Assembly: GCA_944380025.1 (NCBI GenBank)
Contig: CALWGL010000003.1
Span: 1 to 35,780, forward strand
Length of the DNA: 35,780 bases
Direction of reading: 5' to 3'
DNA from: an uncultured Lachnospiraceae bacterium
Lineage (GTDB): Bacteria > Bacillota > Clostridia > Lachnospirales > Lachnospiraceae
The notes beneath the pieces were generated by a model. The model was not told the origin of the DNA. It made no database searches and worked only from the letters and a program-made list of their open reading frames with translations. This document shows, piece by piece, positions 7,084-31,801 of the stretch (the first letter of the stretch is position 1; each line of letters starts with the position of its first letter). The translations under genes were made by a program, and so were the position numbers.

Positions 7084-8109
7084 TCATTTTCTGCGCAGGC
7101 CGTTCTTCCGGCAGAATTCCTCAAAGATCCTCTTTTTTTCAGGGAGCCGTCTGTTGAATTCTGAATAGTCACTTTTTTCATACCAGTATGCAACGGGCCT
7201 GTCGTCTGTAAATTCCCGGGCGGCGATCATCGGGAACCGGAAAAATTCACACAGCTCCCGGACCCTTGAATCCGCATAGAAAAACAGAGCGGGGATCCCG
7301 TTGTTGACAGCCATTACGTTTCCATGAAATCGATATCCCATGGAGAAATCATACTTCCGTATCTCCTCCTGCCATTCGCTGTAAGTGAAGAAGACCTTTT
7401 TCCCGGCCAGCCACCGTGAGACCTGCCGAAAGGAATCCGTTCCCCCCGGCCAGTCAGCCTCCTTCAGCTCCCCTGCCGTCTGTTCAATGAAGGAAAAACG
7501 GTTCTCCGCCAGATATTTCAGGAATCTCGCCTCATGCTCCTTCAGTTTTCTCCAGAAGGTGGAAAAATTGGAGACCGCATGCTGCGGTTTACAGGAAGGA
7601 AGGGATCTGACGGGAGTTCCGGACTCTATCCCGGCATAGACGGAAGGGCAGCCGATGACCATCAGATCGCGGATCCCGTGCCTGTTCAGGATCTCCGCTG
7701 TGTATTCCCCTCTGCAGCCTATCGTACATCTTTCCTCTATTTTCTTCAGATCCGCGACGACTTCGGGATGGATCTGAAAGCCGGGATCGTAATCGTTTGC
7801 CTGAAGTCCCACGCTCATTGGGATCAGAGGTCTGTCCCCGGCCGGCTCCAGGATGCCGGGGATGGGCGTATTCTGCCGGATCCAGATATAGGATGTGGTG
7901 ATAAAACTGTCGTACTGTGCCAGAACATCCGGCGGAGTATCCCAGTATACCCTGTCTGCATCGATCAGCTCTGACAGCGCCGTATCAAAAACGATATTTC
8001 CCGTATTGTTTCCAAGGGCCCTGTATCTGTCTGAGACATTCATCTGTTCATGGACCGGCTTCAGGCTGAATATCGCCGTTTTGCGATTGCTGATATCATT
8101 CACAGTCAT
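7084..8109 (-). CDS. Polysaccharide pyruvyl transferase family protein
   Basis: This 341-residue protein has the features of the PF04230 pyruvyl transferase family (CsaB/WcaK relatives), which adds ketal-linked pyruvate from phosphoenolpyruvate to sugars of surface polymers. Recognisable segments are IPMSVGLQAND, the central GCRGEYTAEILNRHGI with VIGCPSVY, and the C-terminal GYRFHGNVMAVNNGIPALF, where the His in RFHG is typical of the fold. The ribosome site (GGGAAG) is modest. It is the last gene of the polysaccharide locus, 35 bases behind the large GT2-HAD gene. The sugar acceptor cannot be read from the sequence. Confidence 0.88.
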   Translation of the reverse strand: MTVNDISNRKTAIFSLKPVHEQMNVSDRYRALGNNTGNIVFDTALSELIDADRVYWDTPPDVLAQYDSFITTSYIWIRQNTPIPGILEPAGDRPLIPMSVGLQANDYDPGFQIHPEVVADLKKIEERCTIGCRGEYTAEILNRHGIRDLMVIGCPSVYAGIESGTPVRSLPSCKPQHAVSNFSTFWRKLKEHEARFLKYLAENRFSFIEQTAGELKEADWPGGTDSFRQVSRWLAGKKVFFTYSEWQEEIRKYDFSMGYRFHGNVMAVNNGIPALFFYADSRVRELCEFFRFPMIAAREFTDDRPVAYWYEKSDYSEFNRRLPEKKRIFEEFCRKNGLRRK

Positions 8110-8144
8110 CTGCTTGTCTTCCCTTCTGTCTGTGTCAGGTCTGC

Positions 8145-11100
8145 TTAATGAATGAAGCGGGATACGATCTTTTTCACCGTCTCCCGTTTCCTGCTTCCGA
8201 TGGGCAGCTTTCTGTTCAGGAGCTCATAGGCCTTCAGAAATATTCCGTCCGCATAGATGCCCTCTGTTCCTTCCGGCTGCCGGTCCCCCGCGCCTGTCTG
8301 ATCACCGGCGTTTGACCGGATGACAGACTGTACGATCTCTTTCTCCGGAATCTTCTCATTCAGTCTGTGATAGACGAGCGCATTCTCCCATTCGTCAGTG
8401 AGTCTGATCTTTTCTCCGGCAAAGGAATCATCCTCAAAGGTGACGCAGCCAAGAACGGCTCTGTCCTTTCCGGATGAATAATGCATAAAATATTCAAACG
8501 GGAGCGAGGCGTCAAAATTCCGGAACAGGAGGGGAATGTCGGTATCTCCGAAACATGCTTCGAAATCTCTGACAAAATCCAGAGCGGCTGCCTGCATCGT
8601 ACTCAGGACGAATTCATTGAAATAATGCTCCGTATATTCCGGATCCGGCAGAGGACGCATTCCGTTTTCCGCGTCGTATCCCACGCAGGAAGGGCCGATC
8701 TCGGAAAAGATCAGTTCTCTGGCCGCCGCATAGGCCGACGGCGTATGGTCATAAAAGGTTCTGATCGTAAATCCCTTGTTCCGCGCCCTTTCCGCCGCTC
8801 TGCTCTCGTTGGTGTACAGATACAGACAGTCTACGGGATGACCTGTCAGGGAGCTCAGGATGTGTTCTTTGTTGGCCCGGTATCCAAGATCGAACAGAAT
8901 GTCATTCTCCCGGATCAGCCCCTGAAAATATTCCTTTGCCTTCTGATTATAGGCGGCAGCCTGTCCGGCATCGATGTAATCGGTGAACAGGTTCTTTCCC
9001 AGTTTCATGGTTTCCGTAAAACCGCCCGTTTTTCCAAAATAAATGAAGCCGTTTTCGCTGAGCGTTTCCAGACGGCGGCCGTATTTTTCACGGGCGGCTG
9101 CCGAAAAGGCATCGATCGGATTTTTTATGGGAATACGAAACGAGGAAAAGGAGCTGAGATAAGATTCCACATCCGCGATCGATCCGCTCTGCAGAGCGGC
9201 AGTCGCTTTCCTGGAGATATGCAGATAATGGGCTTTTGTCCCGAATCCTCTCTTCTCCTTCAGGATCTCAAAGGCCTTCATCGGCAGGAAGCCGTCGCGG
9301 GAAACAAAGTGGACCGTGTCCCTTTTTTCCGCTTCCGCAGTATGGATGATCCAGTTTGTCACGGCATACAGATGCATCCCAAGCAGGTAGTATCCCATAT
9401 AGAAGGGATCACAGTTAAAGTCCGTATCCGGATGGAACTGTACGGTATAGGGATTGTCAAAGATCCTGTCTGCCGCGACCGCAAGCATGCACCGGATCCC
9501 CAGATATTCCGCGGCGGACTCTCCCATATAGATCTTTCCGGACGGACCGAATATTCTGTGGTAGCTGTGTCCGGTATAGATCCCCGGATTTTCCCCTTTG
9601 AACATGCTGACCGGAGATGCCAGATGAAAGGATCTCATTCCGGCATTTTTGGCCATGACGACATCGCTGCTCCAGTCATCCCCGATGTGCATCATTCTCT
9701 GCGGAGGTATTTTTTCTGTCTGAAGCATGACTCTGTACAGATTCCCGGACCGCTTCGTCATCAGATAATCCGAGGAGACATAGATACGGTCCGCTTCATA
9801 TCCGCACTTTCGGAGCATTCGTTCGATCACCTCTCCCGGCAGATACATGTCGCTCACGCAGACGATCCTTTTGTTCCTTGCCCTGGCCAGTTCAAAGAGT
9901 TCTTTTCCGGTTTTTCTCGCCCGGATGAACCGGAGCTCCAGATCGATCTCTTCCTTCTTCAGAGCGTCTGTCTGTTCCCGCGTCAGTTCAAAGATCTCGC
10001 CGATCCTCTGATAGACGGCGGCAAGCGTGATTTCCTCCGCCCCCATGCTCAGCTCCTCCCGGAGTGCCTCTTCCGTCCGGATCCGGATCTTCTGAAAATC
10101 CACATAGGACAAAGTCTTTACCATGGAATGAAAGGTCCGGTCCATGAGCGCGAACAGATCCGACGGCTTCAGGAAAGGCCTGACCAGAAGGGTATCAAAA
10201 ACATCAAAGCTGACCGTTTCCGTCTGCTCCGAACAGATATTTTTTTTGATATCCTCATAAAAGGCAAAGGAGGCGATGGAAGACCTCACCGTGTAATGAT
10301 AATGATCCTTATCGTTTCTTTCACTGACATGCCCAAAAAGCTCCCGGACCAGCTTCCTGCCCCTTTTTCTGTCACACTCCGGCAGCGCGTCCGCATTTCC
10401 CGTCCAGAACTGAACATAGACTTCCAGAAAGTCTTCATAGTCTTTCCGATATCTTTCAAACAGCTCCTTTTTCTGCAGCAGATCTCTGAAGAAGCAAAAG
10501 ACAGCGGATACATCATTCAGGTTTTTGGAAAATTTGGAAATGTCCCTGTTGGCAACGGACTGCTCCGAGTGATGGAAATAGAAATAGAAGGCGTTATGAC
10601 AGTTCACCACCTTCCGGGCTGCCATCCAGAAAGCAGCGGAAAAAGCGATATCTTCCGTCATGATCAGATGTCCGTATTCTTCCGAAAACCGCTCCAGCTC
10701 CGGACGCGAAGCCTCCCACAGGTTTTTTCTGTAGATCTTGTTCCAGACGGTATGCCATCCGAACCAGAGCCCGTGCTGTCTCATAAAAGCTTCATACACC
10801 TGTTCTCCTGTCAGTTCAATATCCCGGAACCGGAAATTGTCAAAATTGTAGTATTCGATCCGCCCGTCTTCATATTCATCCGCGAAATCGCCGATCACGA
10901 TATCGGCTCCGCTGTCCGTGATCCTGTTCATCAGCAGGCGGTAATAGTCGATGGAAATGTGGTCGTCACTGTCCAGAAATGCAAAATATTCGCCGGACGC
11001 GTATTTCATGCCCGTGATCCTGGTCTGAAACAGCCCCCTGTTCCGGGTGTGCCTGATATACTTTATTCTGGAATCCTTCCGGCAGAACTCTTCGATGACA

Positions 11101-11321
11101 GCCCTCTCATTCTGCGGAGAACAGTCGTCCACGACGATGATCTCTATATTCTGCCAGGTCTGCTCCACCGCGCTTTCCAGGCATCTCCGAATATATTTTT
11201 CCACCTGATATACGGGAATGATGACGGAAAGGACCGGCTGGTCCGTTCTGTACGGATGATTCCCGTCATGGAGCAGATGTTCGGTCTTTGACGATAGATG
11301 ATCTGTTTTTTTTCGAGCCAT
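8145..11321 (-). CDS. Multidomain glycosyltransferase (GT2) - HAD phosphatase - RDG/SR/DxGW domain protein
   Basis: This 1058-residue protein has three parts. Residues 30-270 are a GT2 glycosyltransferase (LSVIIPVYQVEKYIRRCL, IIVVDDCSPQ, FLDSDD metal site). Residues 370-600 form a HAD domain with all four motifs: SFDVFDTLL, VSDMYLPGE, TKRSGNLY and HIGDDWSSD, as in COG5610-type proteins. From about residue 660 to the end is a domain shared with the proteins at 14204-16207 and 17864-19279: HFVSRDGFLP, YLHISRKATAAL, LFDLGYRANKEHIL and RELIFSEIGPSCVGY. The start at 11321 has GAGAGGGA upstream; the frame stays open 32 codons further but without a ribosome site. No signal peptide or clear membrane helix is seen, so it is probably cytoplasmic. 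It may add a sugar and process a phosphorylated intermediate of the polymer; the third domain is unassigned. Confidence 0.85.
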   Translation of the reverse strand: MARKKTDHLSSKTEHLLHDGNHPYRTDQPVLSVIIPVYQVEKYIRRCLESAVEQTWQNIEIIVVDDCSPQNERAVIEEFCRKDSRIKYIRHTRNRGLFQTRITGMKYASGEYFAFLDSDDHISIDYYRLLMNRITDSGADIVIGDFADEYEDGRIEYYNFDNFRFRDIELTGEQVYEAFMRQHGLWFGWHTVWNKIYRKNLWEASRPELERFSEEYGHLIMTEDIAFSAAFWMAARKVVNCHNAFYFYFHHSEQSVANRDISKFSKNLNDVSAVFCFFRDLLQKKELFERYRKDYEDFLEVYVQFWTGNADALPECDRKRGRKLVRELFGHVSERNDKDHYHYTVRSSIASFAFYEDIKKNICSEQTETVSFDVFDTLLVRPFLKPSDLFALMDRTFHSMVKTLSYVDFQKIRIRTEEALREELSMGAEEITLAAVYQRIGEIFELTREQTDALKKEEIDLELRFIRARKTGKELFELARARNKRIVCVSDMYLPGEVIERMLRKCGYEADRIYVSSDYLMTKRSGNLYRVMLQTEKIPPQRMMHIGDDWSSDVVMAKNAGMRSFHLASPVSMFKGENPGIYTGHSYHRIFGPSGKIYMGESAAEYLGIRCMLAVAADRIFDNPYTVQFHPDTDFNCDPFYMGYYLLGMHLYAVTNWIIHTAEAEKRDTVHFVSRDGFLPMKAFEILKEKRGFGTKAHYLHISRKATAALQSGSIADVESYLSSFSSFRIPIKNPIDAFSAAAREKYGRRLETLSENGFIYFGKTGGFTETMKLGKNLFTDYIDAGQAAAYNQKAKEYFQGLIRENDILFDLGYRANKEHILSSLTGHPVDCLYLYTNESRAAERARNKGFTIRTFYDHTPSAYAAARELIFSEIGPSCVGYDAENGMRPLPDPEYTEHYFNEFVLSTMQAAALDFVRDFEACFGDTDIPLLFRNFDASLPFEYFMHYSSGKDRAVLGCVTFEDDSFAGEKIRLTDEWENALVYHRLNEKIPEKEIVQSVIRSNAGDQTGAGDRQPEGTEGIYADGIFLKAYELLNRKLPIGSRKRETVKKIVSRFIH

Positions 11322-11368
11322 ATATTTTTCCCTCTCTGCGGATAATGATCCGGATCTGTCGGAAAGTA

Positions 11369-11397
11369 CCCTGTCTCCGGGATCTCCGGAGGCAGGG
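11369..11397. repeat. 12-bp inverted repeat between exported-protein gene and GT2-HAD gene
   Basis: CCCTGTCTCCGG (11369-11380) and CCGGAGGCAGGG (11386-11397) pair along 12 positions with one G-T, around a 5-base loop. It lies in the 143-base spacer. No T-run follows on either strand, so it is not a typical intrinsic terminator; it may be a leader structure. A second small hairpin (CCTGTC-TCT-GACAGG on the minus strand) lies nearer the upstream gene. Confidence 0.45.
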
Positions 11398-11464
11398 CAT
11401 CTTTCATGAAACCACACCTTGTGTATCAGCCTGTCAGAGACAGGTTTCCGATTTCCGGAACCGG

Positions 11465-12157
11465 TCAGGTCCCGGGAGAAGAAGCTGCTGCTGCGGGAAT
11501 GGATGCTGAGGGAGTTCCCTGAGCGACAACGAAGGTCACATTCACGGCTCCGCTGAAGGCGGGAAGCGCGATCGCAACAGCGTTGTTGATGATAACGACC
11601 GGCAGTGCCGCCCAGGTTCCGTCCGCTCTCTGATACAGAGCCTGAATGGTCTCGCCTTCCTTCAGCTCCCTTCCGCCGAGGATATCGCCGAGGGCAAAAG
11701 CCGCGGAAATGGAGCCGTTCTGGGATACCGCTTCACCGGAAGCGGTGGCAAGGCCGATGGTCATGTTGTTTACGATGTTCAGGTTCCCTGCGGCGTCCGT
11801 CAGGGACAGGGCGCCGTGGCCGGTGAAGTTCAGAACTCTCCCGCCGCGGGAGGTGATGGCCGCTGCCAGGGATGCCGCCGCATTCTGTGCCTGCTCAGAG
11901 GTGGTCGGAGCTGTCACTACGGCAACGGCTGCCGGATCAACAGTCTGTCCGCCCGCAGTGACAAATGCGGTTCCGGGCAGGATGGCGGTCTGTCTGCCGG
12001 GAAGGCTTGCTGCCTGCAGGTTTTCGCCGATGGAGGAGCTCACCACCACCTGCTGAACGGTTTCTGTGATAATGGACGGGCTGGGAGCCGCCATTGCAGT
12101 CGTCCCCATGGCAAGGGTCATAACCGCGGAAAGTACGATCGTCAGTTTCTTTTTCAT
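11465..12157 (-). CDS. Exported Ala-rich protein of unknown function
   Basis: I do not recognise this 230-residue protein. It begins with a clear Sec signal peptide (MKKKLTIVLSAVMTLAMG, with a likely cut after TTAMA). The mature part is rich in Ala, Val and Thr, poor in charge and has no cysteines. It ends with a low-complexity Ala/Ser/Pro tail (IPAAAASSPGT) and has no LPxTG or hydrophobic anchor. AGAAAGGGG precedes the ATG. It lies 121 bases behind the LCP gene, a gap with a GCCTGC/GCAGGC inverted repeat (12252-12273) and a small GCGG-GAAA-CCGC hairpin. Its position beside the LCP and sortase-like genes suggests a cell-surface role, perhaps as a partner or substrate; that is inference. Confidence 0.75.
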   Translation of the reverse strand: MKKKLTIVLSAVMTLAMGTTAMAAPSPSIITETVQQVVVSSSIGENLQAASLPGRQTAILPGTAFVTAGGQTVDPAAVAVVTAPTTSEQAQNAAASLAAAITSRGGRVLNFTGHGALSLTDAAGNLNIVNNMTIGLATASGEAVSQNGSISAAFALGDILGGRELKEGETIQALYQRADGTWAALPVVIINNAVAIALPAFSGAVNVTFVVAQGTPSASIPAAAASSPGT

Positions 12158-12278
12158 ATGGTTCCCCTTTCTGAAAATAAAATGAGTCTGTGTGGCTTCT
12201 ATATATCAACAGGCGGTTTCCCGCACCGTTAATACCATTGTCAGATACGGCGCCTGCGGCCATGGCGGCAGGCAGCCG

Positions 12279-13379
12279 TTACGGTATGTTTCCCTCCGGG
12301 ATCTCCTCATAGAAGACCTGAAGGATCAGTTCGTAAAGAGCGGTTTCATCCGGATAAAATTCCTCAAAGAGTTCTCCCTCCTTCACCTCTCCCTGCAGGG
12401 AATAAAGATTTTCTTCGCTGAAATCGCAGGAGACTGCCGTTTCTGCGAGACGCGCCGCTTCCCGGAGAGTAATGTCCGTTACCATGTACGGAGCGGCTGT
12501 CCGATACAGGGTGAAGGGAAGGATGACGTCTTTTTTAACGGCGTTCACCGCCTGCGGGATAAACGCCCGCAGATAGTCCTTCTGCCGTTCCAGGCGGGCT
12601 GCAGCGCTCTGCGCCTGTCCGGTATCTCTGTATCGGATAAAGGTATAGGCGTCCTTTCCCATCAGACGGACCCGTTCTCCGGCTTTCCAGCCGGGCCTGT
12701 AGCGTCTGTCGTCAATCTCGACATCCGCCCCGCAGGCGTCTTCCGGGATGATCACTTCCACACCGCCCACCGCGTCGTTTAACAGCGCGACCGCTTCCAT
12801 GTTCAGGGCGAAGTAGCCGTGGATGGGAAGACCGTAGAACAGGCGGCTCACCGCGTCCGCCGTGTTTTCACAGCTTTTTTTCAGCCCGTCGCCGTAAGCG
12901 TGGGCGAGGGCGATCTGGCCGGTCCGGGTCCCGGCATAGAGACCGTTTCTGTCAAACACGGCGATTTCCGTCATGGTGTCACGGCTGATGCCGATGATGC
13001 TGACTGTTTTTCCCTCCGGGTCCAGAGCTATAAGGAACAGCGCGTCCGCCTGTCCTCCATTGTAAAGATCCTCAGAGGCTTCCGCTTCGCCGGTTTTGTC
13101 GATGCCCATGAAAAGAAGAGTCACGATATCGCTCTTATAAGCATAGGTCTTTCCTTTGTAACGGAGTTCTCCGGCCTGAAGGATTTCTCCCTCTTCCGGA
13201 TGAGCCGCAAAAAGCTGATGCATGCCTTCCGGCGCCGCCTCCTGTCCGGCGGCCGGCCCGGCTTTTCCCCATCGGTCCGGGAGCAGCCATGCCGCGGCGG
13301 CGAAGATGCCTGTCAGAAAAAGGAGACAGGCCAGTATGACGATTGCAGGGAGTCTTCTTTTCCGGCCGTTCCTTCTCAT
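12279..13379 (-). CDS. LytR-CpsA-Psr (LCP) family glycopolymer ligase-like protein
   Basis: This 366-residue protein has a basic N-terminus and one membrane helix (IVILACLLFLTGIFAAAAW), then an extracellular LCP domain. Diagnostic segments are LLFMGIDK, QADALFLIALDP, ISRDTM near residue 131, VGGVEVIIP and YTFIRYRDTG with ARLERQK. LCP proteins transfer glycopolymers from undecaprenyl carriers to peptidoglycan or proteins. Its ATG overlaps the stop of the sortase-like gene by 4 bases (ATGA), implying translational coupling, and AAGGGA lies upstream. In this locus it is the natural candidate for attaching the exported polysaccharide to the wall. Confidence 0.9.
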   Translation of the reverse strand: MRRNGRKRRLPAIVILACLLFLTGIFAAAAWLLPDRWGKAGPAAGQEAAPEGMHQLFAAHPEEGEILQAGELRYKGKTYAYKSDIVTLLFMGIDKTGEAEASEDLYNGGQADALFLIALDPEGKTVSIIGISRDTMTEIAVFDRNGLYAGTRTGQIALAHAYGDGLKKSCENTADAVSRLFYGLPIHGYFALNMEAVALLNDAVGGVEVIIPEDACGADVEIDDRRYRPGWKAGERVRLMGKDAYTFIRYRDTGQAQSAAARLERQKDYLRAFIPQAVNAVKKDVILPFTLYRTAAPYMVTDITLREAARLAETAVSCDFSEENLYSLQGEVKEGELFEEFYPDETALYELILQVFYEEIPEGNIP

Positions 13380-14152
13380 GTTCCCTTTTCCTTTCCGTTC
13401 TGAGATTTCCCGGATACAAGCACAGCCTGTACCAGATACCTTCTGTCATCCTGTCCGCTTACGCCTGTGGAAAGCGTGACGATCCTGTCGTCCGCGGTCA
13501 CTTCCGCAGAATCATCCACGCAGGCGTCCATGGCCCTCTGGGAAAATATCGTTTCCAGATAGGCGGAAAAAATGTCCTTATCCCAGAAGTCATATATTTT
13601 GATCAGATGTCTGTCGTCGTAATTGTAGGCGGCAAAAATGCGGTAACTCATCACCCGGTCTTCCAGATAAATGTCAAGGGCACGGTGAGAATCAAAAAAA
13701 TCCCTGTCCTGAAAGCGGTGCAGTCCGGCGAATCTGCCGGCCGTGTTCCTTCCGTAGATCACCGTATTCGGGTCGGAGAAATCCTTCCGGCTGAAATACT
13801 CCGTATAGATACAGCCTCCGTCGTCCGCTTCCTTCGCTTCGTTGTGAGTCAGATAAAAAGCTTCGTCTTCTGCCGACTGCAGAAGGGGAAAGCTGATCCC
13901 GGTTCCCGGAAGGTCCAGCCAGGCATAGATATCGGGATTGATCTGCCTGAGCCGGTCCAGATCCAGATATCCTTCCTCTGTCAGATAGGCCGGGAGGCCG
14001 ATCCCTGCGCCATCCGAAGACGCTGCGGCGCCGCTTTCTTCCCGCATGCCGCCGCAGGCGGCAAGGAACAAAGCAGCCAGAGCCGCGGCCGGGAGAAAGA
14101 AACGTCTTCTGCCTGAGGGGAACCGGTTCCTGAATTTCCTTTTTCTATTCAT
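13376..14152 (-). CDS. Sortase B-like lipoprotein lacking catalytic Cys and His
   Basis: This 258-residue protein follows the class B sortase fold pattern: NPDIYAWLDLPGTGISFPLL, YLTHNEAKEADDGGCIYTEY, NTVIYGRNTAGRFAGLHRF and VTLSTGVSGQDDRRYLVQA. In active sortase B the second-to-last motif reads YGHN and the last LSTC. Here the His is Arg135 (codon AGG) and the Cys is Gly230 (codon GGC), while the Arg of the RRY segment (about residue 238) remains. The frame is intact, so this is a coherent gene, not a wreck. The N-terminus ends in a lipobox, LFLAAC with Cys33, so it is probably a lipoprotein rather than a helix-anchored sortase. It overlaps the LCP gene by 4 bases. Transpeptidation appears impossible; binding or scaffolding of surface polymers is inferred. 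Confidence 0.85.
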   Translation of the reverse strand: MNRKRKFRNRFPSGRRRFFLPAAALAALFLAACGGMREESGAAASSDGAGIGLPAYLTEEGYLDLDRLRQINPDIYAWLDLPGTGISFPLLQSAEDEAFYLTHNEAKEADDGGCIYTEYFSRKDFSDPNTVIYGRNTAGRFAGLHRFQDRDFFDSHRALDIYLEDRVMSYRIFAAYNYDDRHLIKIYDFWDKDIFSAYLETIFSQRAMDACVDDSAEVTADDRIVTLSTGVSGQDDRRYLVQAVLVSGKSQNGKEKGT

Positions 14153-14203
14153 ATAACTGATCTTCCTTTCCGATCATTATTCTGTTCCGGCATGCGAAGC
14201 CCT

Positions 14204-16207
14204 TCAGGTCAGGACGCACCGGATATCTTCTTCACGCAGTTTCTTCCGCTCCGCTTCCATCCACAGATAAGCGGGCGCCGCCGCATCTCTTCCGCTGATA
14301 CAGGGAAGGAAGGCCTCCATACCGCTTTTTTGATACAGCCTGCAGAAATCCAGGATCCCCTCCTGGATCCGGCCGGCCTCTGCGGCGCGTCTGTCCGTGT
14401 CCGGCCGGAGCGAGCGTTCCTCCCAGTCCGGTCCTGCAAAGCCCCGGAACCCCGGAAGGGGAGAAGAAAAAAGCTTTTCCATCGCCACGTTGTCGCCTCT
14501 TGCCGGATCGTGTTTCGCCCAGAGATCCCGGTTGTGCGCCTGAGAGAAAACATAACTGACCAGTTTCCCGGAGGCAAGCTGAGCCTCGCTCATATCCGGC
14601 TCCGCGCTGCAAAGGGTATTGGTGCCGGCAAGGATCCCTGTGACCTGGCAGTCCAGGTTCCAGATCCGCTGAAACAGCGTATCCAGCGCCATCGCTCCGC
14701 TCCCTGCCCAGCCGATGTCTATGACGGCGGCTTTTTTCGCGCCGGAAAGCATCTTTTCGTAGTAGCGTTTTCCCGTTTCCAGCTGACTGTCATAATGAAC
14801 TGCGGTCTCCTCCCAGCGTCCGTTCAGATAATCCATTACCGCATGGACATTCCTGTCCGTCAGAATGTCGTTTTCCTTCAGCCCTCTTCCGCTTCTTTCC
14901 GTCAGGCCGCCCAGCATATCGGAAAGCTCCATGGCTTCCAGGATCTGCTTCAGGGTGAAGCCCTGGTTGACCTTGTGAAACAGAAATCTTCGGAAATAAT
15001 CGTATTTGTAACAGCGGGCGGCCATTTTTGCCGCTGCCAGCCGGGACCAGAGGACATAACGGATCTTTCCCTCCTCTTCCGGGTAGAGCAGACGGTATAC
15101 CCGGAAAAGGATATGGCCGTCTCTGGACAGGAAGAGGATCCTTTCGATCCCGTGCGACTGTGTATACCGTCGGATGAACTGACAGTAGCCCAGCGCCAGG
15201 ATGCCGCCGTAGAGGAAGCCGCATTCGTAGTCCCGGTCTCTGACCTGCAGGCCGTTGTGCAGATGAGCGTTGACCAGTCCGCGGTAAACGCTTCCGGTGA
15301 CGCAGGACATTTCCATGGCGCGGAAAGGCTCTCCTGCCCTGTTGACATTCTGATATAGCATGCTGTCCCATCCGGCCTTCCGGGCATTTTCCACGTCTGC
15401 CGCACGGCAGTCTCCGATATGGATATAGCTTCCCGGTCCGAGCGCCTTTTCGATCTTTCCGTACAGGCCGCCGCCGCTTTTGGAACAGCCGCATTCGCAG
15501 GATACGTAACAGGCTTCTATCCCGGAGAAGCCGCATTTTTCCAGCATTTCGCTGACGGTTTCCTTCGGAAGGTACATATCCGACAGGACGATGATCCGTT
15601 TGCCTTTTCTTTGGAGGATGCGGAATACATCCAGCAGATAAGGATTGGCAAAGCACAGCTCCTTCTCCGTCTCCTGTTCCAGCCGCATCCCTTCTTCTGC
15701 GGGTATGCCGGCCTCCTGTTCCAGCCTTCTGTAAATGTCCGACAGGGTGATCTCCCCGCAGCCCCTTAGCCGTCTGTTTTCCTCTCTTTCCCGCTCCTCA
15801 GCCTTCCTGCGGATCCGCCTGAAATCCGGATAGTTCAGCTTCTGTCCCACGATATAGAACAGATCCTCCGGACTGGCAAAGGGACGGAAAAGCAGGGTAT
15901 CAAAAACGTCGAAGGAGATCACGTCATACTCCGCCAGTCTGCGCGCAAGGCTTTCCGGAACTTCTCTTACAGAGGCGGCGGATTCCGGCGTTTTTCCGGA
16001 AAGCCTCCGGGCCGTCCGGCTGTCCTGCCCTGTCTGTCTGCCGCCGGCCTTTCGAAGAAGCCGGTCCGCATGAAGACCCGCCAGGCAGACCCAGGCGAAA
16101 GGACGCTGCCAGGACGCCGTCTGTGCGCTGCGTATCCTCTGATATTTTTCCCTGATCTCCGGCGCCCGGCCGACCAGTATGCTGTAGGCGCGCATTCTGA
16201 GCGTCAT
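14204..16207 (-). CDS. HAD phosphatase - RDG/SR/DxGW domain protein
   Basis: This 667-residue protein has a basic N-terminal segment, then a HAD domain at about 95-300: SFDVFDTLLFRPFASPEDLF, VLSDMYLPKE, CSKSGGGLY and YIHIGDCRAADVENA, so Asp nucleophile, Ser, Lys and acidic motifs are all present. The C-terminal half shares four motifs with two other proteins of this locus: ILFLSRDGHIL near 361, YVLWSRLAAAKM near 387, VIDIGWAGSGAMAL near 498 and EKLFSSPLPGFRGF near 578. It equals the large protein at 8145-11321 without its GT2 domain. Its ATG overlaps the stop of the ABC ATPase gene by 4 bases with GGGAGGGA upstream, so it is coupled to the exporter. The substrate is unknown; a phosphorylated sugar or polymer end is a reasonable guess. 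Confidence 0.82.
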   Translation of the reverse strand: MTLRMRAYSILVGRAPEIREKYQRIRSAQTASWQRPFAWVCLAGLHADRLLRKAGGRQTGQDSRTARRLSGKTPESAASVREVPESLARRLAEYDVISFDVFDTLLFRPFASPEDLFYIVGQKLNYPDFRRIRRKAEEREREENRRLRGCGEITLSDIYRRLEQEAGIPAEEGMRLEQETEKELCFANPYLLDVFRILQRKGKRIIVLSDMYLPKETVSEMLEKCGFSGIEACYVSCECGCSKSGGGLYGKIEKALGPGSYIHIGDCRAADVENARKAGWDSMLYQNVNRAGEPFRAMEMSCVTGSVYRGLVNAHLHNGLQVRDRDYECGFLYGGILALGYCQFIRRYTQSHGIERILFLSRDGHILFRVYRLLYPEEEGKIRYVLWSRLAAAKMAARCYKYDYFRRFLFHKVNQGFTLKQILEAMELSDMLGGLTERSGRGLKENDILTDRNVHAVMDYLNGRWEETAVHYDSQLETGKRYYEKMLSGAKKAAVIDIGWAGSGAMALDTLFQRIWNLDCQVTGILAGTNTLCSAEPDMSEAQLASGKLVSYVFSQAHNRDLWAKHDPARGDNVAMEKLFSSPLPGFRGFAGPDWEERSLRPDTDRRAAEAGRIQEGILDFCRLYQKSGMEAFLPCISGRDAAAPAYLWMEAERKKLREEDIRCVLT

Positions 16208-17034
16208 GCCGTCCCTCCCGCACGATCTGCGAAGGAGCTTTTCCGGTAAGCCTCGCAGACCTTTGCCGGTTCTCCGATCTCCTTCAATATGCCTTTTTCG
16301 ATCCAGACGGCCCTGGTGCAGTTTCGGACGATGGCGTCCGCGGAATGGGATACCATCAGAACGGTAGAACCGCTTCGGATCATTTCCCGGATCCTTTCCT
16401 CGCTCTTCTTCCGGAAGAAGATATCTCCCACGCTGAGCACCTCGTCCAGGATTAGGATCTCCGAGGCCTTTCCCGCGGTCGCGATGGAGAAGCCGAGACG
16501 GGAGACCATGCCGGAGGAAAAATTTTTGATTTTTTCTTCCATAAAACCGTCCAGTTCCGCGAACGCTGTGATCCGGTCAAAATTTGCGTCGATAAATTCC
16601 CTGCTGTAGCCGATGATGGCCCCGTTCAGGTAGACGTTCTCCCGGGCGGTCAGTTCCGGATCAAAGCCGGTTCCCAGCGTGAGGAGCTGCACCTTTTTCC
16701 TGTCCGCTTCGATCCTCCCCTCCGACGGCTTCAGCACACCGGCGATCAGCTTTAAAAGGGTGCTCTTCCCGGAACCGTTGGTTCCGATGATGCCGAACAC
16801 CTCTCCTTTTCGGATCTCAAGAGAGATATGCCGAAGGGCCTCCAGCTCATGACAGCGGTTCTTTCGTTTCAGGGTGACCAGAAGATATTCCTTCAGGCTG
16901 CCCGCGTTCACATCGCTGATGCGAAAACGCATGCTCACGTTTTCCAGGCGGATGGCCGGCGGTTCCTGCTGCCGGCCTCTCTGGTCTGTGTCAGGATTAT
17001 GTCCCGGCCGTTCTCTTTCCATTGCTTTTGTCAA
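16204..17034 (-). CDS. Polysaccharide ABC transporter ATP-binding subunit (Wzt/TagH/KpsT type)
   Basis: This 276-residue ATPase energises export of a lipid-linked glycan with the permease encoded just upstream. It shows Walker A GTNGSGKST, the variant signature FSSGMVSRL usual in this subfamily, Walker B ILILDEVLSVGD and the H-loop MVSHS. I choose the TTG at 17034 because AGAAGGAG lies 7 bases ahead; an ATG four codons later (17022) is the alternative, and the frame remains open far upstream without a ribosome site. It lacks the extra C-terminal carbohydrate-binding domain of long Wzt proteins, so export probably does not depend on a recognised terminal cap. The 4-base overlap with the downstream HAD gene suggests coupling. 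Confidence 0.92.
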   Translation of the reverse strand: MTKAMERERPGHNPDTDQRGRQQEPPAIRLENVSMRFRISDVNAGSLKEYLLVTLKRKNRCHELEALRHISLEIRKGEVFGIIGTNGSGKSTLLKLIAGVLKPSEGRIEADRKKVQLLTLGTGFDPELTARENVYLNGAIIGYSREFIDANFDRITAFAELDGFMEEKIKNFSSGMVSRLGFSIATAGKASEILILDEVLSVGDIFFRKKSEERIREMIRSGSTVLMVSHSADAIVRNCTRAVWIEKGILKEIGEPAKVCEAYRKSSFADRAGGTA

Positions 17035-17087
17035 AATATCACTCCTTCTGCGAATGATGCTCCATATCTTTGTCTCTCCGGGGGCTG

Positions 17088-17879
17088 TCAGACGGTCTGC
17101 ATGATCCGGTCCCTGTTTTTCTGAAAGATCAGATATCCGAGCAGGTACACGGCGGCGGCCCACAGAAGCATCTGAAGCCACTGCGCCGGTCCGGGCCAGG
17201 AGCCGTTCAGCATGACAGCCCTCATGGATGCGATATAGCCGTATACCGGATTGGCCTCGATCATCCTGCCGATCATCTCCGGAAGCTGCTCTACCGGATA
17301 GAAGATCGCCGAGCAATACATCCAGAGGTTCAGAAGGACGGAATACAGATATCTGATGTCCGCAAAAAACACGTAGGCCACGGCAAGCAGGCAGCCGATC
17401 CCCATGGAAAACAGCGTCAGACACGCAATGATGGCAGGCGCGGCCAGCATGGGCAGCCCCGGACGGATCCCAAAGACCAGGAGCATCACCAGGTAGGCCG
17501 CAAAGGTGTACAGATAATTGATCAGCGCGCTGTAAACTCTTGCCGCCGGAAAGATCATCATGGGGAAACGGACCCTGGTGAGCATCACCCGGTTATCCAC
17601 CATGGCGGTCATCGCCGTACTGGTCGCTCCTGTGAAGAGCTGCCAGATGGTCTGCCCGGTCAGCAGATACAGAGGGTAGTTTTCAATATTCCGGCTGAAC
17701 ATTCTGGTGAAGATGAAGGAAAGCACCACCATGTTCAGCAGCGGATTCAGCACACTCCAGACGATTCCAAGGCAGGAACGGGAGTATTTCCTCCGGATCT
17801 CCCGGGATACGAGCTGTCTGACCACAAACAGATACTGCTTCAGTTCCGTATGATTCTTCATTTCTATGCCGTCTTCCAT
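17088..17879 (-). CDS. Polysaccharide ABC transporter permease (Wzm/TagG type, ABC-2)
   Basis: This 263-residue integral membrane protein has about six hydrophobic helices and the ABC-2 signature near its N-terminus (RRKYSRSCLGIVWSVLNPLL), plus VRFPMMIFPAAR and the C-terminal SAIFYPVEQLPE segment typical of Wzm/TagG. It forms the channel for exporting undecaprenyl-linked glycan with the ATPase 53 bases downstream. Two starts are possible: ATG 17879, directly abutting AGGAAAGG, or ATG 17861, two bases after the stop of the preceding gene. No flippase (Wzx) or polymerase (Wzy) is present, so this is an ABC-dependent system. Confidence 0.92.
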   Translation of the reverse strand: MEDGIEMKNHTELKQYLFVVRQLVSREIRRKYSRSCLGIVWSVLNPLLNMVVLSFIFTRMFSRNIENYPLYLLTGQTIWQLFTGATSTAMTAMVDNRVMLTRVRFPMMIFPAARVYSALINYLYTFAAYLVMLLVFGIRPGLPMLAAPAIIACLTLFSMGIGCLLAVAYVFFADIRYLYSVLLNLWMYCSAIFYPVEQLPEMIGRMIEANPVYGYIASMRAVMLNGSWPGPAQWLQMLLWAAAVYLLGYLIFQKNRDRIMQTV

Positions 17880-19279
17880 CCTTTCCTGAAACTGCTCTGC
17901 ATCCTTGCAAAGGACGCATATTTATAGAGAAGGATCCCCGCCCTGTGCCATGGGAACAGGCATCCGCCGTACAGACGGACGCTTCCTTCGACCCAGCCGC
18001 TGTCCTTCAGCTTCCGCCTGCCGGGCAGAAACATCAGCCTGAGCCGGAAAGGAAGGTGATGGTCCAAAAGCTGGCGCTGTGTCAGCCGGGAAGCCAGCGG
18101 CTGCATATGATCTTCCGTCACGTCATCGGAAAAGGAGAAGCTTCCGAAGCAGAGGCTTTCTTCCCTGGAAGGGTTTGCCATGAATCCGGACAGAAGCGCT
18201 TCCGGATCCAGGCCCTCCGCTTCCCGGCAGAGGCTTTCCCCGTAGGCATCCGCGGCGGCCAGCACGTACTGCTCCAGAAGCCCGAGCTGACGGCGCACGC
18301 GTTCTTCCTGCGCGCCAGCAACAGCTGCCAGACGCGGCTGCCATCTGCCGTCCTTCTGCTCATATCCCAGCGTCATTCCATGGGGCGCGGTAAAAATACA
18401 CTCGAACAGGCAGTTGGAAAAACGGGTCTTTCTGCGCAGTCCTGTCTCCGGTTCAAAATAGAAGCCGTGAAAAAGCTGTCTGTCTGCCTGCGGCGGAAGG
18501 CTGTAAAGACCGAAATAATAGCCTTCCGTCTTTCCCCGGTATCCGGCGCTCTCCAGCAGATGGCGCAGACTCTCCTGCATGGTCCCGATCCAGCCGCTGT
18601 CCACCAGGGCATAGGGAACCTCCTCAAAAAGCCCCTCCTGCCTGAGATAGCCTATGGCCGGTTCCAGGCATTCTTCCGAATGTTTCCGGGCAGGCTCCAG
18701 GAAGGTTCTGCAGCCGGAAAGCAGAACGCGCAGATCCCGGATCTCCTTTCGGGAGAGGATGACATCCATCCCTTTTCCGGGACAGATCTCTGCCGCAACC
18801 CGTTCCGCCTCTTCCGGTGTCAGCCCTGCCCTGCGCATCAGGGAGGCAAAGGTTACGTTCATCCCTCCCCGGCATACCCGTTCCAGGAAATCCTCTCCGA
18901 TCAGATGCTGTTCCGGAAGCCTCCAGGCAAGACGGGAAGCATACAGATAACGGCAGTCGAAAGGAAGCCCGTACATCCGGCAGAGTTTTTCAGCCAGCCG
19001 GTACATCAGATATCCGTCCCGGGCGAGGAAATACAGCCGGTATCTGCCGGCCCGTTCCGCCTGACGGAATATCCACAGGAGAAAGGACAGAAGCACAGGC
19101 CCCAGTACGAACATGCTGACGGCAGCCTGCGCATCCGGGATCCACTGCCGTTTCTTTCCGTCAGCCTGCACCGTTTCCGCGTATGCCTGTTCGGACAGCC
19201 TCAGAAGCTCCGGCGTCCGGCTCAGCAGGTTCCGGTAATCATTCAGTTTTCCGTTCTGTCTCCGTTTTTGTTCCTTCAA
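17864..19279 (-). CDS. Stand-alone RDG/SR/DxGW domain protein of unknown function
   Basis: This 471-residue protein is the version without a HAD or GT domain. The shared motifs are YFLARDGYLMYRL near residue 86, YLYASRLAWRLP near 116, ALVDSGWIGTMQESL near 228 and FECIFTAPHGMTLGY near 293. A hydrophobic stretch (MFVLGPVLLSFLLWIF, about 56-71) precedes the first motif and could be a buried helix or membrane contact. The start appears to be a TTG at 19279, overlapping the 3' end of the glycosyltransferase gene by 41 bases, with a weak AAAAGGGGCGG upstream; no better start is seen. It also overlaps the permease gene by up to 16 bases. Tight packing between a glycosyltransferase and the exporter suggests a role on the glycan chain. 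Confidence 0.75.
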   Translation of the reverse strand: MKEQKRRQNGKLNDYRNLLSRTPELLRLSEQAYAETVQADGKKRQWIPDAQAAVSMFVLGPVLLSFLLWIFRQAERAGRYRLYFLARDGYLMYRLAEKLCRMYGLPFDCRYLYASRLAWRLPEQHLIGEDFLERVCRGGMNVTFASLMRRAGLTPEEAERVAAEICPGKGMDVILSRKEIRDLRVLLSGCRTFLEPARKHSEECLEPAIGYLRQEGLFEEVPYALVDSGWIGTMQESLRHLLESAGYRGKTEGYYFGLYSLPPQADRQLFHGFYFEPETGLRRKTRFSNCLFECIFTAPHGMTLGYEQKDGRWQPRLAAVAGAQEERVRRQLGLLEQYVLAAADAYGESLCREAEGLDPEALLSGFMANPSREESLCFGSFSFSDDVTEDHMQPLASRLTQRQLLDHHLPFRLRLMFLPGRRKLKDSGWVEGSVRLYGGCLFPWHRAGILLYKYASFARMQSSFRKGWKTA

Positions 19280-20102
19280 TGGCTGCCGCCCCTTTTTCCA
19301 CCTGTTTTTTCTTTATGTACATCAGCAGCGGGGAAGGCAGAAGACCTGCCGCAATGGGGCGGGCCGCGTAAAACCATACTGCCGGCCCTCTCATTCCCAG
19401 ATTTTTAAAGCTTCGCTGCCGGACCTTTGCCTCATCCAGCCGGTATCGGATCTTTCGCCGCGCGTAGGCTGCTTTGTCTTCCCTGTAGCAGAACAGGCGC
19501 TCCTGTATGTTGTAACCACGATAGCCCTGCGCATACAGCCGCATGAATAGCTCGTAGTCTTCACAGCGCCTGGTCTCCCTGGAAACGAAATAGCCGCGGC
19601 TCGTAAGATAGACCTCTCTGCGTACCATGACCGACGGATGAATAAAAGGAGAAAACGGAAGAAAATCCTTCCTGTCCGGCTGCTCCGGCATGATCCGCGT
19701 TCCCCATACTCCGTTCTGGTCGATCAGATCCGCGTTGGTTCCGACAAACGCATACTGCAGATTTTTTTCCAGAAAATCCACCTGCCGTTCCAGACGATCC
19801 GGCCTCGAGATATCATCCGCATCCATGCGGGCGATATATTTCCCTGCCGCCTGCGCGATACAGGTATTCAGCGCAGCGGCAAGCCCCAGGTTTTCCGTAT
19901 GCCGGAGGATACGGATCCTTTCATCCCTGTTTTCATAAGCCTTCAGGTGCTTCGCCGCTTCCCTGTCCGACCCGTCGTCGCAGATGATCAGTTCCCAGGC
20001 CTGCAGAGTCTGAGCGAGGACGGAACAGACCGCCTCCTCCAGCTCTTCTCTGTTGTGCTGGTTATATACGCCCATCACTATCGTAACCCGTATGTCCGAC
20101 AT
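19239..20102 (-). CDS. Family 2 glycosyltransferase
   Basis: This 287-residue protein has the GT-A fold marks of family 2: VTIVMGVYNQ at the N-terminus, ELIICDDGSDRE, GLAAALNTCIAQAAGKYIAR and the metal-binding MDADD. It ends in a short hydrophobic, basic stretch that may touch the membrane. The start at 20102 has GGAGGTGA at good spacing; the frame is open further upstream into the preceding gene but that part lacks homology. It follows the GT4 gene by 16 bases. It probably adds one sugar of the repeat unit; donor and linkage are not readable. Confidence 0.9.
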   Translation of the reverse strand: MSDIRVTIVMGVYNQHNREELEEAVCSVLAQTLQAWELIICDDGSDREAAKHLKAYENRDERIRILRHTENLGLAAALNTCIAQAAGKYIARMDADDISRPDRLERQVDFLEKNLQYAFVGTNADLIDQNGVWGTRIMPEQPDRKDFLPFSPFIHPSVMVRREVYLTSRGYFVSRETRRCEDYELFMRLYAQGYRGYNIQERLFCYREDKAAYARRKIRYRLDEAKVRQRSFKNLGMRGPAVWFYAARPIAAGLLPSPLLMYIKKKQVEKGAAAIEGTKTETERKTE

Positions 20103-20118
20103 ATTCTTCACCTCCGGA

Positions 20119-21342
20119 TCATGCCCTGCTGTTTTTCCAGTTTCCGCGCAGCGGAGCACGTTTCCGGCCTCCGGCGCATTCCCTGCCGCGGGAAGCTGCC
20201 TCGTACACCTGCTCCATGATCCTTTCTGTCGCTTCCGCGCTGAACCGGAATGATCTTTCCCGGCTTTCCTGTCCCATTTTTTCCCGTTCCCTCGGACAAT
20301 ACAGCAGCCGGCGTACTGCCCTTTCATATTCTTCCGCCCGGTTCTTTCCGCAGACGATACCGGTTATCCCATCCTGCATATACTCCCGTATGCCGCGGCA
20401 GTCGGAGGTGATGAGCGGAAGCCCTGATGCCATGGCTTCTGCTGCCGCCATGCCGAAGCCTTCCCTTCGGGAGGGAAACAGAAAGCAGTCCGCTGCCGGG
20501 AGCACGTCCTCCATGTTTTTTCGGTAGCCGAGAAGCTTTACCCGTTCCTGCAGGCCTTTTTCCCGGATCAGCGCTTCCAGCTTTTTTCTGCCCTCTCCCC
20601 TTCCGCAGATCCCGTAATAAACATTCTTTTCAGGAAGCAGGGACATCGCGTGGATGACCGCCGCATGATTTTTATTCCGGTTCAGTTCGCCTGCTGAAAG
20701 AAGAAGAAAAGCATCCGGCGGGAACCCGAGTTCTTTTTTTCTTCCGGCCCGTACTTCCGGTTTCGGAACGAACCGCCGCATATCCAGCCCTGTGCCCGGA
20801 ATTTTCCAGACGCTTCCGCCTGGTCTTAAGGGGAAACGTTTTCCCCGCTCATAATCCTCCCTGTTAATGGTGATCAGAATATCCGTCAGCCGTGCCAGGA
20901 CGAATTCGGCCGGGTAATAGAGCAGCCAGTTCTTCCAGGGAGCATTCCTGTAAAAATGAAAACCGTGAGCGGTGTACAGGATCACGGATCCCGGAGAAAA
21001 CAGACTTCCGGCAAGACGTCCCAGCACGCCGCCCATGGGATTGTGACAGTGGATGAGCTCAAATCGTTCCTTTTTCAGAAGCGCCTTCAGCTGCTGAAAC
21101 GCTTTCAGATTCCCACGGATACGCGCAGGACTTTTCTCAATGAAAAGGGGATGGGTGACGATCCCGTTTTTCGAAAAAAGATCTTTCTCATGATCATATA
21201 CAGGATGTTCAAAATTCGTCGCATAATGAACCTCATATCCCAGCTTCTGCAGCAGAAAAACCTGATTCATTTCAAACTGCGGCACAAAGCCGCTGACCGC
21301 GGTAATGATCAATGCCTTTTTCATTCTTCTGTACTCACTCAT
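20119..21342 (-). CDS. Family 4 glycosyltransferase (EpsD/CapM-like)
   Basis: This protein of about 407 residues has the two-domain GT-B pattern. The N-terminal domain has ALIITAVSGFVPQ and YTAHGFHFYRNAPWKNW, the latter characteristic of EpsD-type enzymes. The C-terminal domain carries LLSAGELNRNKNH and the nucleotide-sugar motif SRREGFGMAAAEAMASGLP (E-x7-E). The chosen ATG at 21342 overlaps the stop of the HTH gene by 8 bases, favouring coupled translation; an ATG at 21324 (MKKALIIT) fits the family N-terminus equally well but has a weak ribosome site. It is the first biosynthetic gene of the locus. Confidence 0.9.
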   Translation of the reverse strand: MSEYRRMKKALIITAVSGFVPQFEMNQVFLLQKLGYEVHYATNFEHPVYDHEKDLFSKNGIVTHPLFIEKSPARIRGNLKAFQQLKALLKKERFELIHCHNPMGGVLGRLAGSLFSPGSVILYTAHGFHFYRNAPWKNWLLYYPAEFVLARLTDILITINREDYERGKRFPLRPGGSVWKIPGTGLDMRRFVPKPEVRAGRKKELGFPPDAFLLLSAGELNRNKNHAAVIHAMSLLPEKNVYYGICGRGEGRKKLEALIREKGLQERVKLLGYRKNMEDVLPAADCFLFPSRREGFGMAAAEAMASGLPLITSDCRGIREYMQDGITGIVCGKNRAEEYERAVRRLLYCPREREKMGQESRERSFRFSAEATERIMEQVYEAASRGRECAGGRKRAPLRGNWKNSRA

Positions 21343-21556
21343 CCTGTTCTTTTTCTCTAAATAGATAGCCGAGTTCACATTCCGGAAACAGCACATCTCT
21401 GATCGTTACGGCTTCCCTGTATATCCATTCCGATGTTCCCTCTATCTTGGCTCTGATCGTTTCGTCCCTTTCTCCCAGCAGACACGCAAGCTCATGCGGA
21501 GAGATCCCTTTTCTTTTCATCTCACTGTTCAGGTTGCTGCAGTCGATCCTGCTCAT
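21335..21556 (-). CDS. Small phage-type helix-turn-helix protein (first gene of the polysaccharide operon)
   Basis: This 73-residue protein resembles short phage-type DNA-binding proteins of the DUF739/Cro-like kind: NLNSEMKRKGISPHELACLL, then GERDETIRAKIEGTSEW and a C-terminal helix ending EYLF-like (ELGYLFRE). The stretch ISPHELACLLGERDETIRAKI fits a helix-turn-helix. AAGGGGA precedes the ATG. It is separated by about 86 bases from the predicted start of transcription of the 21649-21677 promoter, and its 3' end overlaps the GT4 gene. As the leading gene behind paired operators, it is a candidate autorepressor or activator of the whole locus; the divergent XRE protein is the other candidate. 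Confidence 0.7.
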   Translation of the reverse strand: MSRIDCSNLNSEMKRKGISPHELACLLGERDETIRAKIEGTSEWIYREAVTIRDVLFPECELGYLFREKEQDE

Positions 21557-21623
21557 CTCTTCCCCTTATGATTCAGCTAAAAAAAATTTTTTACCGGATC
21601 AGCCGACTGTCCAGCGCAATGAT

Positions 21624-21639
21624 TTGCGATATATCGCAA
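21624..21639. promoter_or_regulatory. Perfect 16-bp palindromic operator (O1)
   Basis: TTGCGATATATCGCAA is identical to its reverse complement. It starts just downstream of the -10 of the minus-strand promoter, about where transcription should begin, an ideal place for a repressor. An additional CGCAA half-site at 21615-21619 forms a second inverted repeat (5-4-5) with its left arm, centred 10 bp away. Confidence 0.75.
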
Positions 21640-21648
21640 CTGACGCTT

Positions 21649-21677
21649 ATTTTATTGCAACGCATCGCAGCTGTCAA
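21649..21677 (-). promoter_or_regulatory. Near-consensus promoter of the polysaccharide operon
   Basis: On the minus strand TTGACA (21672-21677), a 17-base spacer and TAAAAT (21649-21654) give a near-perfect sigma-A promoter. It reads into the small HTH gene and the polysaccharide genes beyond. Its spacer is filled by operator-like site O2 and O1 follows the -10, so strong intrinsic activity is probably held down by a repressor. Confidence 0.82.
21655..21670. promoter_or_regulatory. Second operator-like site (O2) inside the promoter spacer
   Basis: TTGCAACGCATCGCAG matches the O1 palindrome at 11 of 16 positions, including TTGC and ATCGCA. It occupies the space between -35 and -10. Its centre is 31 bp from that of O1, about three helical turns, so two dimers would sit on the same face of the DNA. 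Confidence 0.6.
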
Positions 21678-21688
21678 GCTGATACGGA

Positions 21689-21707
21689 CAGTGGATCTTT
21701 TCCACTG
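21689..21707. repeat. Inverted repeat upstream of the polysaccharide promoter
   Basis: CAGTGGA and TCCACTG form a 7-bp inverted repeat around TCTTT, 11 bases upstream of the minus-strand -35. It differs from the TTGCG sites, so it could bind a different regulator or form a short hairpin. Confidence 0.5.
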
Positions 21708-21725
21708 ATGATCATTATTGCCAGG

Positions 21726-21738
21726 ATTCCCAGGGAAT
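21726..21738. promoter_or_regulatory. 13-bp palindrome next to the XRE gene promoter
   Basis: ATTCCCAGGGAAT is a perfect 6-1-6 inverted repeat, 4 bases ahead of the plus-strand -35 at 21743. It is unrelated to O1/O2 and is placed like an operator or activator site for the XRE gene. Confidence 0.5.
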
Positions 21739-21742
21739 AACA

Positions 21743-21771
21743 TTTACAATGCGGGGAAAATGGGATATATT
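21743..21771 (+). promoter_or_regulatory. Predicted promoter of the divergent XRE regulator
   Basis: TTTACA (21743-21748), a 17-base spacer and TATATT (21766-21771) are followed 24 bases later by the ATG at 21796, with CGGGAG as ribosome site. It is divergent from the polysaccharide promoter, with about 65 bp between the two -35 boxes. Confidence 0.7.
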
Positions 21772-21795: not shown

Positions 21796-22137
21796 ATGAA
21801 AAGAAATGATATTCTGAAAAAACTGATGCGGCAGAAAAATCTCCGCACCGCCGATCTTGCAAGAATGACCGGAATCCCATACACGACCCTGAAGTCCATC
21901 TTTGACCGGGGAGTGGACAGATCCGGTTACAGTTCCGTCTGTGCGATCTGTTCCGCGCTGGGAATCACGACAGATCAGCTGGAGCTCCTGGCACGGGAAA
22001 ACGGAGATCCCGGGGAGAGAGAGCCGTCCGCATCGGAGCTTCTGGAAATGACAGGGGATTTTTCGGAAGAGGAGATGCGGCAGCTGAAAAATTATATTCA
22101 TTACCTGCGTTTTCTGAGAGAACCTCCGGAAATGTAA
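21796..22137 (+). CDS. XRE/Cro-type transcriptional regulator
   Basis: This 113-residue protein has an N-terminal XRE helix-turn-helix: ILKKLMRQKNLRTADLARMT, GIPYTTLKSIFDRG and CAICSALGITTDQL. A short acidic linker follows, then a C-terminal helical part (FSEEEMRQLKNYIHYLRFL) that may mediate dimerisation. It is the only plus-strand gene among minus-strand neighbours for over 20 kb and faces the polysaccharide operon across a 239-base regulatory region. By analogy with phage repressor switches it is the likely ligand of O1/O2, but this is inference. No peptidase or sensor domain is attached, so the signal is unknown. Confidence 0.85.
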   Translation: MKRNDILKKLMRQKNLRTADLARMTGIPYTTLKSIFDRGVDRSGYSSVCAICSALGITTDQLELLARENGDPGEREPSASELLEMTGDFSEEEMRQLKNYIHYLRFLREPPEM

Positions 22138-22172
22138 AAATCGGACAGAGGAAGTTCCTTCCCCTATCCGAT
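22136..22172 (-). terminator. Intrinsic terminator of the SH3-protein operon
   Basis: In the minus-strand transcript two 15-base arms (22158-22172 and 22140-22154) pair fully with two G-U pairs around a GAA loop and are followed by a run of T. It ends the operon running from 26415 to 22219. It also touches the stop codon of the XRE gene; on the plus strand no T-run follows. Confidence 0.88.
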
Positions 22173-22218
22173 CATACAGATGCGCGGCTCACGGCATAAA
22201 TACCGCTCGCCGTATGTT

Positions 22219-31555: not shown

Positions 31556-31801
31556 CTATCCTATCAGCTTTTTTCTGTATATCCGGAACATCCCGCTTCT
31601 GACTGCCTGAAGGTCAGGCAGCAGGTTGTCAGTTCAGCCTTCGGCAGAGCCGCAGCGGCAGCAGACTGCTGTTTTCCGGAGCACCTTGACAACAAAACAG
31701 ACCCTGCGTTTCAGCCAGCCCGCGTTTTGCTGCAAAGGAGAAACAATGTGAAAAATAAGCCGTCGGACTCATTTTTCACAGGCTCCGGAATGGAGGACAA
31801 T

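Follow-up and report, generated by a model that had tools for sequence, protein, structure and literature searches.

The window analysed here, a stretch of 35,780 nucleotides from an uncultured Lachnospiraceae bacterium, carries a surface polysaccharide operon headed by one of two divergent HTH genes, and it raises the question of whether a phage-type decision circuit has been placed in control of a host glycan and, if so, how it would operate there. The initial annotation had tentatively read this arrangement as a domesticated repressor/Cro pair forming a bistable switch. The genome was placed near Candidatus Eisenbergiella (Lachnospiraceae), the named relatives of which are MAGs, several of them labelled as chicken-derived.

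Anatomy of the control region

The two divergent HTH genes (encoding P0002 and P0001), the near-consensus promoter of the glycan operon (matching the consensus at 11/12 positions), the perfect palindrome O1 and the related site O2 filling the promoter spacer were all confirmed where the initial annotation had placed them, the promoter and both sites by a check of the sequence (Table 1), with a distance of 31 bp between the centres of O1 and O2. Four perfect 16-bp palindromes were counted in the window against 0.8 expected from shuffles, which alone is weak evidence, while the probability of finding one by chance within the 239-bp intergenic spacer is 0.0055. When the entire window was scanned with an O1 matrix, in which O1 itself was included, O1 ranked first and O2 second (13.9 vs 6.0 for the third site). 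O1 is the sole copy with fewer than two mismatches in the 3.34-Mb assembly, and a genome-wide O1 regulon was discarded, as the local site alone was recovered; across the genus, the scan recovered the locus of the pair in each of the six genomes that carry it, and beyond that approximately one background match per genome. The CGCAA half-site proposed alongside O1 is indeed present, but separated from it by 4 bp rather than 5 and not kept as CGCAA in relatives, and it was dropped as a third operator half-site, being probably non-functional. Rfam gave no match for a leader RNA element, its only match being one tRNA.

Table 1. Features of the control region and the polysaccharide locus, with positions in the window.
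Feature	Position	Strand	Remarks
P0001, 113-aa CI/SinR-type HTH repressor	21796..22137	+	Divergent from P0002; Pfam HTH_26 (E 4e-8)
Terminator-like hairpin	22139..22173	.	Between repressor gene and SH3-domain gene
Repressor-gene promoter, TTTACA-17-TATATT	21743..21771	+	Own promoter of the P0001 gene
Direct repeats ATTGCCAG/ATTCCCAG	21717..21733	+	9 bp apart, 5′ of repressor promoter
Glycan-operon promoter	21649..21677	-	TTGACA 21677-21672, 17-nt spacer, TAAAAT 21654-21649
Operator O2, TTGCAACGCATCGCAG	21655..21670	.	Imperfect palindrome occupying the -35/-10 spacer, related to O1
Operator O1, TTGCGATATATCGCAA	21624..21639	.	Perfect 16-bp palindrome just 3′ of -10, ~+3 to +18
CGCAA half-site	21615..21619	+	4-bp gap to O1
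P0002, 73-aa HTH protein, cro/mor position	21335..21556	-	Glycan operon gene 1; phage Cro-position homology, fold model
GT4 glycosyltransferase	20119..21324	-	Operon gene 2; Pfam Glycos_transf_1; ATG ~10 nt past P0002 stop
GT2 glycosyltransferase	19239..20327	-	
471-aa locus protein	17864..19279	-	Matches no family
Polysaccharide ABC exporter	16204..17879	-	Permease 17088-17879 and TagH/Wzt-like ATPase 16204-17424
Remainder of locus	7084..16207	-	HAD protein, class B sortase, LytR-CpsA-Psr ligase, secreted protein, GT2-HAD fusion, pyruvyl transferase

A separate promoter serves the repressor gene; neither O1 nor O2 overlaps it, and its -10 region shares positions with the 16-mer that is the most conserved in the spacer. 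No clear operator copy was found in this promoter in the seven Eisenbergiella species described below, whereas several phage relatives have one, and none of the seven has a clear copy of the repressor-side operators O3/O4, weak half-sites being all that was detected. The best repressor-side match is a degenerate half-site over the repressor -10, a weak signal (p ~0.04–0.08 for the window and for three to five of the close species) that may reflect the promoter sequence itself. The direct repeats 5′ of this promoter are kept in close species and absent from E. merdigallinarum; as a lead only, they could be an activator site through which a host regulator brings in a host signal. As a regulon marker, the ATTGCCAG repeats gave too many background matches for interpretation.

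Conservation within Eisenbergiella

The same divergent pair was found in five other genomes of the genus, in which both the polysaccharide locus and the genes around it correspond to those of the window, and in one further named species (L041), making seven species with the window. In all seven the -35 and -10 of the glycan promoter are kept, O1 is TTRCGATRYATCGYAA or near it, O2 lies inside the -35/-10 spacer (degenerate in several species) and the GT4 gene directly follows that of P0002, starting about 10 nt after it in each; the O1–O2 distance is 31 bp except in one species, which has 30 bp. This comparison of the spacer across relatives, which the initial annotation had suggested, revealed O1 and O2 kept before the same pair and operon in six further species, and it is because of this conservation, which is strong evidence, and not of the palindrome alone, that we hold the O1/O2 observation to be real.

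One genome (G003, L035:1694-10190) has the polysaccharide operon elsewhere, by flagellin and another glycosyltransferase gene, and without the HTH pair; the module is therefore an added control and not a requirement of the locus. In trees of both genes the Eisenbergiella copies form a single clade, to which a prophage copy (L056) is sister in the P0002 tree (94/92), and as far as the sampling reaches the sequences point to one domestication event.

Phage and prophage relatives

A P0002 profile search of approximately 400 Lachnospiraceae genomes yielded 14 relatives, 12 of them with a divergent P0001-like neighbour and a thirteenth with a weak one. Pairs with long enough flanks were mostly located in prophages, accompanied by an integrase/recombinase, with an ImmA/IrrE-type peptidase following the repressor and replication genes following the small HTH gene. 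The named phages YMC-2011, X2 and NIIg3.2 share this divergent arrangement, the gene order in YMC-2011 being integrase, metalloprotease, HTH, divergent HTH and antirepressor. P0002-family proviruses are present in IMG/VR, and no close viral relatives of P0001 were found in that database.

Nine mobile-element copies have one site in the cro-promoter spacer and another just past the -10, 31–33 bp apart, and between copies the operator sequences vary in step with the proteins. A third site (O3) lies 62–64 bp from O1 in eight mobile-element loci (p ≤ 0.03 in six), and some of these relatives have an operator site in the repressor promoter. Parageobacillus phage NIIg3.2 carries TTACGACATATCGTAA after the -10, in the place of O1, and TTACGATGTGTAGTAT in the spacer, in the place of O2, along with two additional operator copies on the side of the repressor gene. 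The recognition helix of its CI (GVPYTTIRSMIER) is near-identical to that of P0001 (GIPYTTLKSIFDR), but its Cro helix (MRYPTIVDKT) is unlike that of P0002, so it is the CI-like protein that the operator tracks. The resemblance to phage control regions noted in the initial annotation is thus one of homology, as judged from the hhalign matches to named phage proteins (E 1.4e-18 for P0002 against phage Cro-position proteins and E 4.8e-13 for P0001 against phage CI N-terminal domains), the prophage contexts and the operator identity with NIIg3.2.

A second, separate clade of the divergent pair, with operators TACCCNTNAGGGTA, was observed apparently outside prophages (L024:7858-8617 and L067:6026-6719), one of the two pairs preceding a sugar-type ABC transporter; this is possibly another domestication.

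The two HTH proteins

P0001 lacks an S24 or other peptidase domain. Its best fold match was SinR (1b0n_A, E 0.003, with a poor global fit), which it also matched in sequence at E 0.025. Among the seven species its recognition helix is nearly invariant, as is O1. No ImmA-type peptidase (Peptidase_M78) neighbours the pair, and a search of the 84%-complete assembly found none; an ImmA acting in trans was set aside on this result, the incompleteness of the assembly being borne in mind.

P0002 had no above-cut-off match in Pfam or NCBIfam, and its model is a confident five-helix Cro/C1-type fold (pLDDT 88) with CylR2, MOR (6tri_B) and 434 Cro as structural neighbours. Its recognition-helix segment contains 2–4 acidic residues in all seven species versus 0–1 in 15 relatives and, unlike that of P0001, is variable among the seven; the net charge of the protein (-3 to -5) is below that of nearly all relatives. 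These acidic residues do not prove that DNA binding has been lost, although P0002 is less likely to be a DNA-binding Cro than an antirepressor of the TP901-1 MOR type or a Cro in decay. The description of the first operon gene as Cro-like holds for its homology to phage Cro-position proteins and its Cro/C1 fold, while a role as a DNA-binding Cro is less likely given the acidic helix. Both HTH genes are under purifying selection, with dN/dS mostly 0.1–0.2 (synonymous sites often being saturated); for P0002 it ranges from 0.08 to 0.38 and is mostly ~0.1, and the C-terminus of the protein contains a strongly conserved FPECELGYLF motif.

How the glycan operon may be controlled

The evidence computed here comprises homology, the anatomy of the region, the conservation of the operators and their identity with those of a phage, a single origin and selection on both genes. 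We consider it probable that the lysogeny-control module of a Gram-positive siphophage has been domesticated here and that P0001 represses the glycan promoter through O1/O2, both the binding and the repression being inferred from sequence. These sites are the most likely route of repression because NIIg3.2 shares the operator, its places and a near-identical CI helix. P0001 dimers on O1, 3′ of the -10, and on O2, in the -35/-10 gap, would block RNA polymerase and thereby keep the polysaccharide operon off. Points that weigh against this reading are the degenerate O2 of several species, the lack of an S24 domain in P0001 and of a neighbouring ImmA-type peptidase through which repression could be lifted, and the G003 locus that occurs without the pair. 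A domesticated repressor/Cro-position pair leading a polysaccharide operon, as originally proposed, is upheld by phage homology, phage-type geometry and conserved operators.

The bistable double-repressor switch that had been built upon this pair fared differently. It would require both HTH proteins to act on the same operators, each silencing the other's promoter, so that the ON or OFF state of the glycan is inherited, and the divergent CI/Cro pair with its phage promoter-spacer operator geometry speaks for it. The O3 and repressor-promoter operators of the phage relatives are nevertheless lacking in Eisenbergiella, the repressor promoter offering at best its degenerate half-site; because O3/O4 are absent and the P0002 recognition helix is acidic and variable, mutual repression is not supported as written and we regard it as improbable. 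The same loss of O3/O4 and the altered helix would suit a vestigial Cro, with P0001 repressing in a SinR-like way and P0002 providing only the leader position and the coupling to GT4, with no regulatory role. We think this unlikely, as P0002 is under purifying selection and retains a strongly conserved C-terminus, and it therefore does something. Least of all do we favour a decaying prophage remnant lying beside polysaccharide genes by chance: the prophage ancestry is clear, but both genes and both operators are kept in seven species, GT4 begins at the same short distance behind P0002 in each, and the window has no recognisable integrase, ImmA/S24 peptidase, lytic or further phage genes.

Under repression by P0001 through O1/O2, P0002 would be made first from the operon and, while retaining the Cro fold, has most likely lost its recognition of the operator. 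Its inferred target would be P0001 itself, on which it would probably act as a MOR-like or SinI-like antirepressor, a role that we advance tentatively and by analogy. Once the promoter fires, P0002 would help to hold the operon on in self-sustained expression, and such antirepressor feedback could produce all-or-none behaviour without O3/O4. That the phage decision circuit has in this manner become a host glycan toggle, with P0002 capturing the repressor, the operon sustaining its own ON state and subpopulations being all-or-none, is conceivable though rather doubtful.

Comparison with known systems

The CI/Cro regions of Gram-positive siphophages (phi11/X2, YMC-2011, NIIg3.2) encode homologous divergent proteins, as here, and their cro promoter combines a spacer operator with a post-(-10) operator approximately 31–34 bp apart (31 bp here, 30 bp once), the operator sequence of NIIg3.2 being common to the Eisenbergiella module. 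Unlike these regions, the Eisenbergiella module drives a chromosomal polysaccharide operon, has no nearby integrase, ImmA/S24 or lytic genes, has lost the repressor-side operators and encodes a Cro-position protein with an acidic helix. In phi11, CI binds O1 and O2 cooperatively while Cro binds O3 only (PMC3991615); this Cro site is the operator that is missing in Eisenbergiella.

The CI-MOR systems of TP901-1 and phi13 have an HTH protein of ~72 aa in the Cro position, like P0002. High-affinity binding to DNA has not been demonstrated for TP901-1 MOR, which acts through the capture of CI (PMC11149083). The MOR fold is among the closest to the P0002 model and the acidic helix may also fit the MOR type, but the sequence link is not significant (E 0.08) and MOR membership by sequence was set aside.

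SinR/SinI of Bacillus subtilis, a short phage-type repressor over a polysaccharide operon together with a small antagonist, can be likened to P0001/P0002, and by this analogy SinR is the closest functional analogue of P0001. SinR has several target loci, and its antagonist SinI is not of the HTH type. Unlike SinR, P0001 has its gene next to the target, together with a phage operator pair, and P0002, as candidate antagonist, lies inside the target operon. DicA/DicC of E. coli act inside a recognisable cryptic prophage, whereas the Eisenbergiella module has no remaining prophage and has host glycan genes as its target. These retained phage-type regulators of the Qin cryptic prophage matter to the host (PMC10448788).

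In the open-access literature, no precedent was found for a chromosomal glycan operon under the control of a phage CI/Cro pair and its operators; the component parts are known and the new element is their use. The locus offers a traceable transfer of a complete phage decision element, comprising the repressor, the Cro-position protein, the promoter and the two operators, from lysogeny to surface polysaccharide, with identifiable steps (loss of the integrase, ImmA and O3/O4, and a recognition helix turned acidic), so that the rewiring of a viral switch for host use becomes testable. As the sequences stand, a viral decision circuit probably controls the outer coat of the cell in Eisenbergiella, which suggests that a surface glycan of chicken-gut members is under phage-derived switch control.

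The polysaccharide locus and its surroundings

Within the locus, the GT2-HAD fusion has a HAD region that shares ~40% identity with the 667-aa protein also encoded there (window 8145-11417 and 14204-16207). Beside the locus, at 1442-2302, we noticed by eye a look-alike of a streptomycin-type (ANT(6)-like) nucleotidyltransferase, and on the plus strand, at 31727-32383, a reading frame of low complexity contains short repeats and possibly encodes a coiled coil.
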